Source of the DNA: Reinekea forsetii
GTDB lineage: Bacteria; Pseudomonadota; Gammaproteobacteria; Pseudomonadales; Natronospirillaceae
Length of the DNA: 64,000 bases
Assembly: GCF_018860385.1 (NCBI RefSeq)
Contig: NZ_JAHKPH010000016.1
Coordinates: 62,001-126,000, forward strand
Direction of reading: 5' to 3'
Shown piece by piece: positions 39,376-42,191 of the stretch (position 1 is its first letter; the number at the start of each line of letters is the position of its first letter). The position numbers and the translations under genes were made by a program. A model generated the notes under the pieces. It was not told where the DNA came from, did no database searches, and worked only from the letters and a program-made list of their open reading frames with translations.

Positions 39376-39872
39376 CGACTGTATATATCTTGGCGCTCTT
39401 CTACTTGGGTTAAGTATACCCGCACATCAAATTCCAATTGATGATAATTAGGCAGCATGTACTCACATAAACTGTAAAAAGCTTTGTTATGCTCCTTTTC
39501 TTTGATATGCGCTAATTCATGCACACTAATCATGGCTAAAAACGGTTCAGGAACCCGTTTAAAAAGCGTACTGATTCTAATTTCATTTTTGGCTTTTAAC
39601 TTTTGCCCTTGAACTCTCGAAACAAAGCTATGAGTTCCGAGCGCATTTTTAATCACGTGCAACTTTGGGTCATAAACAACTTTACTAATTGGATTGGATT
39701 TTTTTAAGTATCGGTTCTTCAGTTCAAATACATATTGGCGAAGCGCTTTATCGGTTGAGTACTCGTGGACTTCCGGATATTTTTCCAGCAAATAATCCCC
39801 AAGTTTATCTCGCGATAAAAGCTCGCTAATGCGAGCTTTTAATGGTTCAGAATAATGTGCCAAATATTTCAA
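39372..39872 (-). CDS. YgjP-like M48/DUF45 zinc metallohydrolase
   Basis: 166 residues with the zinc motif HELAH at ~118-122 followed by KEKEHNKAF (third His), the pattern of YgjP/DUF45 proteins. Members are putative metal-dependent hydrolases whose biological role is unknown. It overlaps the end of the ABC-F gene by 4 nt (ATGA), so the two are probably translated as a coupled pair. That link with a ribosome-associated ATPase is the only functional hint. Confidence 0.75.
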   Translation of the reverse strand: MKYLAHYSEPLKARISELLSRDKLGDYLLEKYPEVHEYSTDKALRQYVFELKNRYLKKSNPISKVVYDPKLHVIKNALGTHSFVSRVQGQKLKAKNEIRISTLFKRVPEPFLAMISVHELAHIKEKEHNKAFYSLCEYMLPNYHQLEFDVRVYLTQVEERQDIYSR

Positions 39873-41602
39873 CTGTCTAACCTATGGTTCAATTCATCTA
39901 ACTCCTGCTGCCACTGCTGTTGCAACTTAGGTTTTTGGAATTTAGCCTTGCGCTGCTTATCTTCCTCTAAAAGTGACTCGAGTTCGAGAATGCGCTCTAA
40001 TAACATTTCATCATCGGAAAGGGCTGGTTTTTCAACGTTGAGCGGCTCGCTGTGTTTCTCCAATTTAGAACTCGAGGCATGTTCCATTACATCTAAACTT
40101 GCAAAATAATCTTCAGGGTTATGCGTTTCAATAAGTTGCCCATTGCGAATCCACCAGAATCGCGTAGCCACCGTTTCAATGAACCGTTGATCATGGCTGG
40201 TGAATAGCAACGTCATCGACTGTTCCACTAAGTTAGCTTCAAGCTCTTCTTTTCCTTGTAAGTCAATGTGGTTGGTAGGCTCATCCATAATGAGCACATT
40301 CGGTTGATCCAACTGAAAGGTAAGCAATAATAATCTGGCTCGCTCTCCCCCGCTAAGCACATTAACGGCACGATTGTGGTCTTGATAAGGAAAGCCCCAT
40401 TGAATTAAGGTCTGCTTAATATCTTCTTCACTGGCCTGCGACTGTTCACGACACCAATCCATAATCCCAATAGTTTGATTAAATTGTTCGAGCTCTTGAT
40501 CGAAATAACCAATGCGTACATTAGGATTAAAACGAGTACAGCTTTGTTCTCCAACAGGTAATCGAAACACGTTCATGAGATGCTCAATACAACTTGATTT
40601 ACCGGCGCCATTTACGCCTAATAAAGCGATTCGATCTCCCGGTCTCATGACCAGCTCCTCAACGTGAAACAGCGGATCACCAATCGGGTTACAAATGTCT
40701 TGGTTCTCTAGAATTAACACCTGCTTACTGCGTAACAATTCCGCATCGACTTGCAGAGATAATCCTGAGCCCGCCGAAACAAAGGTGTAATCTTGCTCTA
40801 GTTTTTCAGCTCGACGCTCAATGGTTTTGGCTTTCCGAGCCAAGTCTTCATTGTCATAGTCTTTGCCCCATTGCGCTAATCGCTTCGCACTCTTTTTTAA
40901 TTTAGTGACTTCACGCTCTTCGGCTATGCGTTGCTTTTGTGCATCTTCATCCTGTTTTTGTAGGGCTAGTTTTGCTTCACTGTAGGGCAATTTAAACTGA
41001 TACAGCCGTTCATCTCGTAACCAAAAAGTCTTTGTCGTAACGCTATCTAGCAGATCACGATCGTGTGAGATCATTAAAAAACTGGGAGCATCACTTGAAG
41101 ATAAATAGCCTTTTAAGTAATGCATGGCACTAGAGTCCATATGGTTTCCGGGTTCATCGAGCAACAATACTTCTGGATCTTTTATAATGGCACGGGCAAA
41201 TAAGATTAAGTTTTTTTGTCCGCCACTGAGCTGGTCTATTGTGTTTTGCCATAAGCTTTCATCAAACCCAAGCCTGAGTAAAAGAGCTTCCACTACATAT
41301 TGCGAAGTGGCTCTTTCTTCATTAGGTAGCGCATCACATACGCAAGCTAAGACAGACAAGGAACTGATTTCGTCTGGTAAAAACTGCTCAACAACACCGA
41401 CTGTTAGACCACGCTGGCGCAATATTCGGCCATCATCCACACTGTGCCGATCTAACAATAAATTCAACAGCGTCGACTTTCCACAGCCATTATGACCAAC
41501 CACGCCAATGCGATCACCCGAATCGATGTGGCATGACAAATCATTAAACAGACGTTTAGTGCCCGCTTGATACGAAATACTTAAAACTGAAATAAGAGAC
41601 AT
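39869..41602 (-). CDS. ABC-F family ATPase (translation factor/ribosome protection type)
   Basis: 577 residues, two ABC domains in one chain without transmembrane segments: the ABC-F layout, known for ribosome binding at the E site (EttA, Uup, VmlR, Vga). Walker A motifs are GHNGCGKS at 36-43 and GVNGAGKS in the second half. The two signatures are LSGGQKN and LSGGERAR, and Walker B is LLLDEPGNHMD and LIMDEPTNHID. The first is unusual, with Gly in place of Thr. The interdomain linker (~210-275) is long and highly charged, and a coiled-coil tail rich in Gln/Lys follows ~500. It is not one of the four E. coli ABC-Fs that I can name with confidence. It is preceded by a leader ORF and hairpin. Confidence 0.85.
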   Translation of the reverse strand: MSLISVLSISYQAGTKRLFNDLSCHIDSGDRIGVVGHNGCGKSTLLNLLLDRHSVDDGRILRQRGLTVGVVEQFLPDEISSLSVLACVCDALPNEERATSQYVVEALLLRLGFDESLWQNTIDQLSGGQKNLILFARAIIKDPEVLLLDEPGNHMDSSAMHYLKGYLSSSDAPSFLMISHDRDLLDSVTTKTFWLRDERLYQFKLPYSEAKLALQKQDEDAQKQRIAEEREVTKLKKSAKRLAQWGKDYDNEDLARKAKTIERRAEKLEQDYTFVSAGSGLSLQVDAELLRSKQVLILENQDICNPIGDPLFHVEELVMRPGDRIALLGVNGAGKSSCIEHLMNVFRLPVGEQSCTRFNPNVRIGYFDQELEQFNQTIGIMDWCREQSQASEEDIKQTLIQWGFPYQDHNRAVNVLSGGERARLLLLTFQLDQPNVLIMDEPTNHIDLQGKEELEANLVEQSMTLLFTSHDQRFIETVATRFWWIRNGQLIETHNPEDYFASLDVMEHASSSKLEKHSEPLNVEKPALSDDEMLLERILELESLLEEDKQRKAKFQKPKLQQQWQQELDELNHRLDS

Positions 41603-41630
41603 ATAAAACCTATACTGACAAATTACGACA

Positions 41631-41680
41631 GCACAGATGCGGTTTCATGAACCCGATTGTAAGGTGCAGCACATCTGTGC
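41631..41680 (-). promoter_or_regulatory. Inverted-repeat leader structure upstream of the ABC-F gene
   Basis: On the minus strand GCACAGATGT pairs with GCATCTGTGC ten bases long (41671-41680 with 41631-41640, last pair T-G). It encloses a 30-nt loop that holds a smaller GGTT/AACC hairpin. The 5' arm can instead fold on itself (GCACA-GA-TGTGC). The structure starts 2 nt after the leader ORF stop and ends 28 nt before the ABC-F ATG. There is no T run, so it would act by translation or mRNA stability rather than simple termination. Confidence 0.55.
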
Positions 41681-41682
41681 GT

Positions 41683-41769
41683 TTATAAAATAAACGACGA
41701 CAATGCTGCAGAACGGTCTCCGAAGAAAAATGCGTAATCTAATACGCATGTGTTTGCAATTGCTTGCAT
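41683..41769 (-). CDS. Candidate 28-residue leader peptide upstream of ABC-F
   Basis: Small ORF starting MQAIANTCVLDYAFFFGDRS and ending SAALSSFIL. Its ATG at 41769 is preceded by AAGGAGG with 4 nt spacing, the strongest Shine-Dalgarno in this part of the window. It stops 2 nt before the 5' arm of a 10-bp hairpin and 80 nt before the ABC-F gene on the same strand. The centre holds Tyr-Ala-Phe-Phe-Phe. A ribosome stalled near the stop would cover the 5' arm, a layout seen in leader-controlled ABC-F resistance genes. It may also be an ordinary small protein. No homologue is recognised. Confidence 0.5.
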   Translation of the reverse strand: MQAIANTCVLDYAFFFGDRSAALSSFIL

Positions 41770-41825
41770 GGAGCCTCCTTTTTATTTTGACAGCCCACTA
41801 AGGCTTTGTTGATAGGAATTGGACC

Positions 41826-41871: not shown

Positions 41872-42191
41872 GTTACTCGCTACGAAACCCGCTTGATTAA
41901 TAATATCTTTTGCTGAGCCAAATGGCGGAGCGTAGCAGAGCTCAACACCTCAAATTTAATACGAATGTCTATATTAAATCGTGCCTTCATAAATACTGGT
42001 GTTTGTACCAACAGCGCTGTTCTTTCTTCGATTTCACCACCAATATGATAAGGTAAACCGCAGTTAGCGAATGAAATAAAGCTGTCTCTTTCAAAATAAT
42101 TTATTTGGGCATCTTCACTTAAACGACGAGCACGTACCGCTGCAGAATCACCACCTGCAACCCCACCAACTTTTAAAATTTTATGAGTCAT
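41872..42191 (-). pseudogene. Internally deleted CoA-disulfide reductase remnant
   Basis: The first ~85 codons are the N-terminus of a CoA-disulfide reductase-type flavoprotein, with GGVAGGDSAA (FAD-binding loop, normally GGASAA) and SFANCGLPYHIGGEI holding the redox Cys. At about 41935 the homology jumps, with a change of frame, to YAPPFGSAKDIINQAGFVASN, the conserved segment found near residue 300 of such enzymes. About 200 codons are thus missing and the reading frame is shifted. The open frame stops at 41880 after 103 codons. A second break seems to follow ASN. This is dead as an enzyme. Its ATG overlaps the extended 5' end of the acyltransferase frame. Confidence 0.85.

Follow-up and report, generated by a model that had tools for sequence, protein, structure and literature searches.

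A probable ribosome-stalling attenuator of erm-type layout upstream of a proteobacterial ABC-F gene

Does the short open reading frame (ORF) lying before an ABC-F gene of Reinekea forsetii, together with the inverted repeat past its stop codon, place that gene under the control of a stalled ribosome? The question was raised by an earlier note on the window, the whole stretch of 64,000 nucleotides analysed here, in which a 28-codon upstream ORF (uORF) with the Shine-Dalgarno sequence AAGGAGG 4 nt before its ATG was said to end 2 nt ahead of a 10-bp inverted repeat, with the ABC-F gene starting 80 nt past the stop codon. These elements were recovered on the minus strand, which holds the whole window system of uORF, hairpins, and ABC-F gene (Table 1). 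The repeat, GCACAGATG against CATCTGTGC at a distance of 32 nt, amounts to nine Watson-Crick pairs with a G-U as the tenth, and its complementarity is real; it is, however, one of several competing pairings and belongs to the alternative 2:3 rather than to the basal state, its arms taking other partners in the free minimum-energy fold. The 201-nt leader folds with a z score of -4.48 against dinucleotide shuffles, 0 of 200 shuffles being as stable. The leader peptide finds a single match in its own genome, namely itself. Directly upstream of the uORF lies an apparently truncated ORF of 103 aa (41880-42191, minus), which we take to resemble the N-terminal part of a pyridine nucleotide-disulfide oxidoreductase, and hairpin 0 of the window (41749-41730, minus) is followed by TTTTTCTT and was scored terminator-like.

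The locus is best read, with good confidence, as a ribosome-stalling translational attenuator with an erm-type plan of four segments, set before the ABC-F gene. The uORF would be translated constantly from its strong ribosome-binding site. As long as ribosomes run through it unhindered, segment 1, which lies in the uORF, would pair with segment 2 past the stop codon; segment 3 would then be available to segment 4, and their pairing would conceal the ABC-F start. A ribosome stalled near a conserved Gly or Ser codon would instead cover segment 1, upon which 2 would pair with 3, segment 4 would be released, and the ABC-F protein would be made, presumably to relieve stalled ribosomes in turn. The earlier note had seated this ribosome at the stop codon; the likely stall falls about 10 codons earlier, at Gly17-Asp18, from where segment 1 would be covered. 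Stalling, its inducer, and any resistance due to the ABC-F product are what we infer from this arrangement. The first observation was thus right and its reading as control by stalling is essentially supported, with the anatomy of the switch corrected.

Table 1. Elements of the leader and its ABC-F gene, in positions of the window
Feature	Position	Strand	Remark
Shine-Dalgarno AAGGAGG of uORF	41774..41780	-	4 nt 5' of uORF ATG
uORF, 28 codons, MQAIANTCVLDYAFFFGDRSAALSSFIL	41683..41769	-	kept as leader ORF in relatives
uORF stop TAA	41685-41683	-	
Hairpin 0, 5' arm ATGCGTA, within uORF	41743..41749	-	enterobacterial-type equivalent shows compensatory changes
Hairpin 0, 3' arm TACGCAT	41730..41736	-	as for 5' arm
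Proposed stall site, codons Gly17-Asp18 (P site, Asp; A site, Arg19)	41716..41721	-	inferred from spacing to segment 1
Segment 1 CTGCAGCA, core TGCAGCA 41704-41710, within uORF	41704..41711	-	would pair with segment 2b
Segment 2a GCACAGATG, 2 nt past uORF stop	41672..41680	-	would pair with segment 3 in the induced state
Segment 2b TGCTGCAC, core TGCTGCA 41665-41671	41664..41671	-	would pair with segment 1 in the basal state
Segment 3 CATCTGTGC	41631..41639	-	would pair with segment 4 (basal) or 2a (induced)
Segment 4 GTATAGGT, weak ribosome-binding region of ABC-F gene	41608..41615	-	would pair with segment 3
ABC-F ATPase gene, 577 aa, probably PAF1	39869..41602	-	ATG 41602-41600, 80 nt past uORF stop

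The ABC-F product has NF000355 (ribosomal protection-like) as its best NCBIfam model (1.1e-97), missing the curated cut-off of that model (328 bits against 380) and scoring far under the cut-offs of the Vga, Msr, Lsa, Sal, and OptrA models. Its relatives in the PDB are PoxtA, YbiT, entries named ExpZ, Uup, and YheS; phmmer puts PoxtA and YbiT nearest among the solved chains and a profile built from 15 orthologs puts YheS and YbiT there, so that none of the solved relatives is clearly the closest. A tree was built of 90 ABC-F proteins, 37 of them selected from the clade; a branch with an SH-aLRT of 100 separates these 37 from the other 53. With the window's own genome counted where drawn, orthologs were found in 14 of 22 genomes of its family and 16 of 390 of its order. 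A profile made from relatives of the window found one among 369 genomes sampled from the class, and a broader one found 35 among 398 from the phylum; the families of G1016 and G973 gave 46 of 198 and 26 of 151, the E-value limits differing between all these searches. Forty records of a plasmid collection match, including Klebsiella, Rahnella, Pantoea, Vibrio, Proteus, Morganella, Photobacterium, and Aeromonas, and 80% of the gene was found at blastn sensitivity in 0 of 5,426 genomes of E. coli, the one Escherichia species covered. PAF1, a proteobacterial ABC-F subfamily, is described in the accessible text of Murina et al. as present in Klebsiella and Vibrio, absent from Escherichia, and a predicted resistance factor (PMC6723617). 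Presence in Klebsiella and Vibrio with none in E. coli fits this distribution, and the clade of the window is probably their uncharacterised PAF1. The gene may be plasmid-borne, for a Morganella morganii copy with its leader (L225:2995-4734) sits close to ada and alkB in a plasmid record of 50.6 kb. Three other "plasmid" records (L220, L224, and L228) are chromosome-sized at 4.1-5.4 Mb and therefore probably mislabelled chromosomes; beside the Proteus copy, a "vanG" resistance call of 39% identity (L224:1-1022) is in our opinion probably an ordinary D-Ala-D-Ala ligase.

Leaders were compared at 124 loci of the clade, comprising 14 from the family of the window, a further 63 classed here as gammaproteobacterial (with Burkholderia among them), and 47 from another class, labelled here the alphaproteobacterial type (Rhizobium, Aminobacter, Brucella, a Rhodospirillales MAG, and the rest from the same phylum). 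All family, order, phylum, G1016, and G973 matches were taken, along with nine of the 40 plasmid-collection records and the best five of at least 80 contig-search loci; removal of three duplicates left 121 distinct upstream regions. A strict rule called for 12-40 codons, a Shine-Dalgarno sequence matching over 7 nt or more, a place within 350 nt of the gene, and an end at least 45 nt short of it. Under this rule, a leader was found in 92 of the 121 regions, in 5 of 1,210 shuffled regions, and in none of the 88 other ABC-F genes. A match of at least 6 nt gave 98 of 121, 30 of 1,210, and 3 of 88, and one of at least 5 nt, which lets chance ORFs through, 109 of 121, 174 of 1,210, and 12 of 88, respectively. 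Among the ABC-F genes compared, the leader is restricted to the clade of the window. Leaders plain by alignment, with a weaker or more distant Shine-Dalgarno sequence, are missed by the strict rule in L155, L157, L158, L191, L196, L199, L200, and L203. No leader ORF was found under any rule, even a loose one, in L125, L218, and L219; L014 passes only through an ORF without a matching helix, none there looking related, and L124 has a uORF with no helix arm of six pairs. All nine plasmid-collection records opened carry the leader, over which no gene is listed in the annotated neighbourhoods of L220, L221, L222, and L225, the annotation table being incomplete. The leader ORFs span 15-35 codons, outside the 3-4 codons that mark the uORFs of vmlR, cplR, and lsaA; the longest reading, 35 codons, was seen in L205 of the enterobacterial type, in which the usual stop is absent. 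Rfam gave no match in the window, none in its leader at E <= 5, none in 13 relatives at gathering scores save three tRNAs in L010, and, in the leader of one relative, only a chance match below the gathering score. Both ORF and stem, on whose conservation in relatives the earlier note had staked its reading, are kept far beyond the window's family, and the leader, introduced there as one "in a gammaproteobacterium", is present in that class with a much wider range over a broad set of Proteobacteria.

A Gly or Ser codon sits 10-13 nt before segment 1 across lineages, while the peptides differ. In the alphaproteobacterial type, the uORF ends in a hairpin (GCCCTGCAAA/TTTGCAGGGC), and a scan that required Gly-Pro before it, covering 45 of the 47 loci (L160 and L204 left out), found the dipeptide in 45 of 45, none failing; these represent 43 distinct uORFs. 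The Gly codon in those 43 is GGC in 32, GGT in nine, and GGA in two, and the Pro, likewise in 43 of 43, is written with four codons; within the hairpin, Ala is GCC in 43 and Leu is CTG in 42. As Gly-Pro is fixed with synonymous freedom and the Ala and Leu codons are near-fixed themselves, selection appears to act on the peptide at Gly-Pro and on the RNA in the hairpin. The hairpin is kept even where the stop codon falls inside it (L047, L155, L157, and L201), and what is conserved in that part is therefore RNA, not peptide. The Gly codon starts 12 nt 5' of the hairpin in 39 of 44 rows, with 16 nt in L148 and 11 nt in L191; in three further rows, the script settled on a different Gly-Pro, a different hairpin, or a spurious stem of 3 bp. 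Among 67 distinct gammaproteobacterial leaders, the codon starting 11-13 nt ahead of the longest arm of a perfect helix encodes Gly in 44 and Ser in 14, hence 58 of 67 against a Gly plus Ser background of 19% in these peptides, the rows being related rather than independent; another helix was taken in L006 and L205, and six of the 77 loci lack a uORF or helix. In the 39 enterobacterial-type uORFs of equal length, codon 14 is Gly in 31 and Ser in eight, and in the window the core arm of segment 1 begins 11 nt after the first base of Gly17. Primer extension stops 16 nt from the P site (PMC13410324, accessible text). With the codon after Gly or Ser in the P site, a ribosome would accordingly reach over the first bases of segment 1, and for this reason the stall is placed at that codon. 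In the same source, bottromycin stalls with Gly in the A site, phenicols with Ala and less so Ser, Gly, or Thr in the E site, and erythromycin at +X+, XDK, and XP (PMC13410324). Each of the three fits part of the data and none fits all, and so no inducer is named. Two other readings were also set aside: an amino-acid attenuator built on YAFFF, whose Phe run is not kept in the other window-clade leaders, and macrolide arrest of the +X+ kind at RQR of the alphaproteobacterial type, where R, Q, and R vary while Gly-Pro is fixed.

The same residues allow an unlikely alternative, in which the uORF stalls ribosomes without any drug, for instance at Gly-Pro or Gly-Asp-Pro, and the ABC-F protein itself relieves the arrest, so that the leader would gauge ABC-F activity in the cell. 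Pro follows Gly in 43 of 43 distinct alphaproteobacterial-type leaders, and Gly-Asp-Pro stands in five of the six window-clade leaders, the window itself having Gly-Asp-Arg. Feedback by an ABC-F protein is real, for MsrD suppresses its own induction in the accessible account (PMC10314930). Pro is absent, however, from codons 14-16 in all 39 equal-length enterobacterial-type uORFs, and the leaders are too different between lineages for one arrest peptide. For Murina et al., moreover, a gene found in only some members of a genus points to a resistance factor (PMC6723617, accessible text), which also speaks against intrinsic arrest.

The RNA on which this attenuator would depend was compared in 41 enterobacterial-type leaders chosen from 63, near-identical, divergent, and leaderless rows being left out. 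Segment 1 (GCTCAAGC) lies within the ORF, segment 2 (GCTTGAGCGAAG) past its stop, segment 3 is CTTC-CTC-GGGCTTACC, and segment 4 (GTAAGC) is beside the ABC-F start. Hairpin 0, the extended 1:2, 3:4, and two local hairpins together form the basal set. Of its 1,473 cells, 94.2% are paired, as against 20-39% for slid partners, and double changes were counted at 11 basal pairs against a shuffled mean of 5.4, with 3:4 nearly invariant. RNAalifold, with no structure supplied, returned hairpin 0, 1:2, 3:4, and one local hairpin, plus other pairs; the extension of 1:2 was not returned. In L166 and L177, the pairs of hairpin 0 are kept even though both arms change amino acids (Glu to Lys and Ser to Leu). 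For the alternative 2:3, 738 cells were scored; complementarity holds in 94.2% of them (slid, 38-51%), with a covariation score no higher than that of shuffles. The covariation check which the earlier note had proposed for the stem is accordingly borne out for 1:2 and hairpin 0, but 2:3, the repeat it had in mind, shows no excess. For the six leaders of the window clade, the corresponding figures are 93.6% of 125 cells for the basal pairs (slid, 20-60%) and 91.6% of 83 cells for 2:3 (slid, 18-49%), the latter without covariation. In the alphaproteobacterial type, the hairpin is followed by GGTCTG as segment 3 in 32 of 43 leaders (55 of 2,150 shuffles), and in those 32 the longest helix of this segment with the ABC-F start region averages 8.0 bp (shuffled, 6.2). 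Sequence comparison thus establishes the uORF, the segments, their complementarity, and covariation of 1:2, hairpin 0, and one local hairpin.

Whether the predicted fold switches was addressed in the 41 leaders with the RNA masked as far as a ribosome seated one codon past Gly. Pairing of 3:4 fell in 21 and rose in three, and that of 2:3 rose in 21 and fell in one, the direction of the switch being right in about half of them. The switch of the window is partial under masking, with 3:4 going from 0.64 to 0.45 and 2a:3 from 0 to 0.29, and the start region remains largely paired, in another way, in the masked minimum-energy fold. A blunter test on 52 leaders, masked to the stop codon and scored by mean openness of the ABC-F start region, gave a release of the start that was not significant (gain of 0.082 against a shuffled mean of 0.049 and a maximum of 0.096 in 40 sets); in the same set, the free start region is less open than in shuffles (0.349 against 0.415).

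It might also be supposed that premature termination, by Rho or at an intrinsic terminator, is the main control and hiding of the start site secondary. Terminators are used by msrD, cplR, and ARE5 genes, as given in the accessible text (PMC10314930, PMC10201436, PMC12421871), toiL-topAI couples to Rho (PMC12121999, likewise), and hairpin 0 of the window has the terminator-like score mentioned above. Control by transcription is nonetheless improbable, given that a terminator scan of the window listed no candidate site in the stretch from the uORF stop to the ABC-F start, that no such T run follows hairpin 0, by eye, in the enterobacterial-type leaders and the other five of the window clade, and that segment 4 overlaps the ABC-F start region.

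The earlier note had proposed a dN/dS check, and in the enterobacterial type, where RNA elements overlap the coding sequence, it returned no overall purifying selection on the peptide: for 39 uORFs of equal length (two of the 41 dropped for other lengths), pN/pS was 0.92, as against 0.70 and 0.95 in the shifted frames. With this value like that of the shifted frames, most of the conservation of these uORFs is attributed to RNA. Such dominant RNA constraint is what a structured 5' UTR working independently of uORF translation would display, be it a riboswitch or a thermosensor with an incidental ORF. We nevertheless regard this as very improbable, considering the very strong Shine-Dalgarno sites, a uORF length held at 27 codons in 39 of 41 leaders (26 and 28 in the other two), the conservation of Gly-Pro at the amino-acid level, and the position of segment 1 inside the ORF in the aligned leaders. 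That these are ordinary conserved intergenic hairpins with no regulatory role is scarcely credible in view of mutually exclusive complementarity to the gene start in separate lineages with different sequences and the absence of strong leader ORFs from the 88 other ABC-F genes.

Beyond the locus itself, a wider claim can be advanced only tentatively, that one sensing principle runs through the entire proteobacterial ABC-F subfamily, with the leaders as biosensors and PAF1 as an inducible ribosome-protection factor. If so, peptides and RNA would have been replaced lineage by lineage while the Gly or Ser codon stayed at its distance of 10-13 nt, and this constant spacing would let a ribosome that halts immediately past it open the switch. 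The leaders would then sense an inhibitor, or class of inhibitors, whose stalling needs Gly or Ser as the last residue of the nascent chain; PAF1, in turn, would be a widespread, unrecognised protection factor of Gram-negative ribosomes, the gene fitting a guard against some natural inhibitor. The regulated resistance ABC-Fs in the accessible texts of the papers cited here are Gram-positive; a stalling-controlled proteobacterial leader would be independent evidence that PAF1, a predicted resistance factor, answers translation inhibitors, and it would provide a reporter for the inducer. Presence in Klebsiella, Proteus, and Morganella lends the matter relevance to intrinsic drug response. The leaders would also illustrate how the layout of an attenuator can outlast its peptide and RNA sequences.

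No report of a PAF1 leader was found among the titles and abstract openings of open-access PMC, preprints and most subscription papers lying outside that search. Mangano et al. reportedly proposed in 2022 that an orthosomycin-resistance gene of several bacteria may be governed by a regulatory ORF, and the present leader would be less new if the two were the same. In the main text on PAF1, as far as accessible, the word "leader" occurs 0 times and regulation is not mentioned (PMC6723617). The accessible text of a Sinorhizobium Ribo-seq study mentions translated 5'-UTR ORFs and does not name the ABC-F gene considered here (PMC10117765). The ABC-F leaders described in the accessible literature have 3-9 codons, are Gram-positive, and often act on transcription (PMC10201436, PMC12421871, PMC10314930).

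Among known systems, the leader resembles those of ermB and ermC in layout; no sequence relation to them was seen. The erm leaders are built on a four-segment plan with 19-36 codons. In ermB and ermC, a stall within the leader ORF refolds the RNA and exposes a Shine-Dalgarno sequence (PMC10219788, accessible text), as would be the case here, and ErmBL stalls at Asp codon 10, which resembles the Gly-Asp-Arg of the window leader; they differ in controlling a methyltransferase with macrolides as known inducers, whereas the present leader precedes an ABC-F gene. The leader is unlike those of the vmlR and lsa type, which the earlier note had named as examples. The Gram-positive resistance genes cplR, vmlR, vmlR2, and lsaA do share a uORF before an ABC-F gene, and cplR hides its own Shine-Dalgarno sequence in the accessible description (PMC10201436), as proposed here; their uORFs, however, have 3-4 codons, they belong to other ABC-F subfamilies, and cplR has a terminator in addition, which leaves the present layout nearer to ermB and ermC. 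In msrDL-msrD, a leader peptide governs an ABC-F gene by drug-dependent stalling (PMC10314930, accessible text), which would be its likeness to the present case, but msrDL has six codons, stalls at the stop codon, and acts by transcriptional attenuation. The toiL-topAI leader of E. coli, as portrayed in the accessible text, serves a toxin-antitoxin operon, its uORF itself pairs with the ribosome-binding site, and it is coupled to Rho, all unlike the present leader; it nevertheless offers a Gram-negative uORF at which antibiotic stalling frees a ribosome-binding site (PMC12121999), much as the leader of the window would do.
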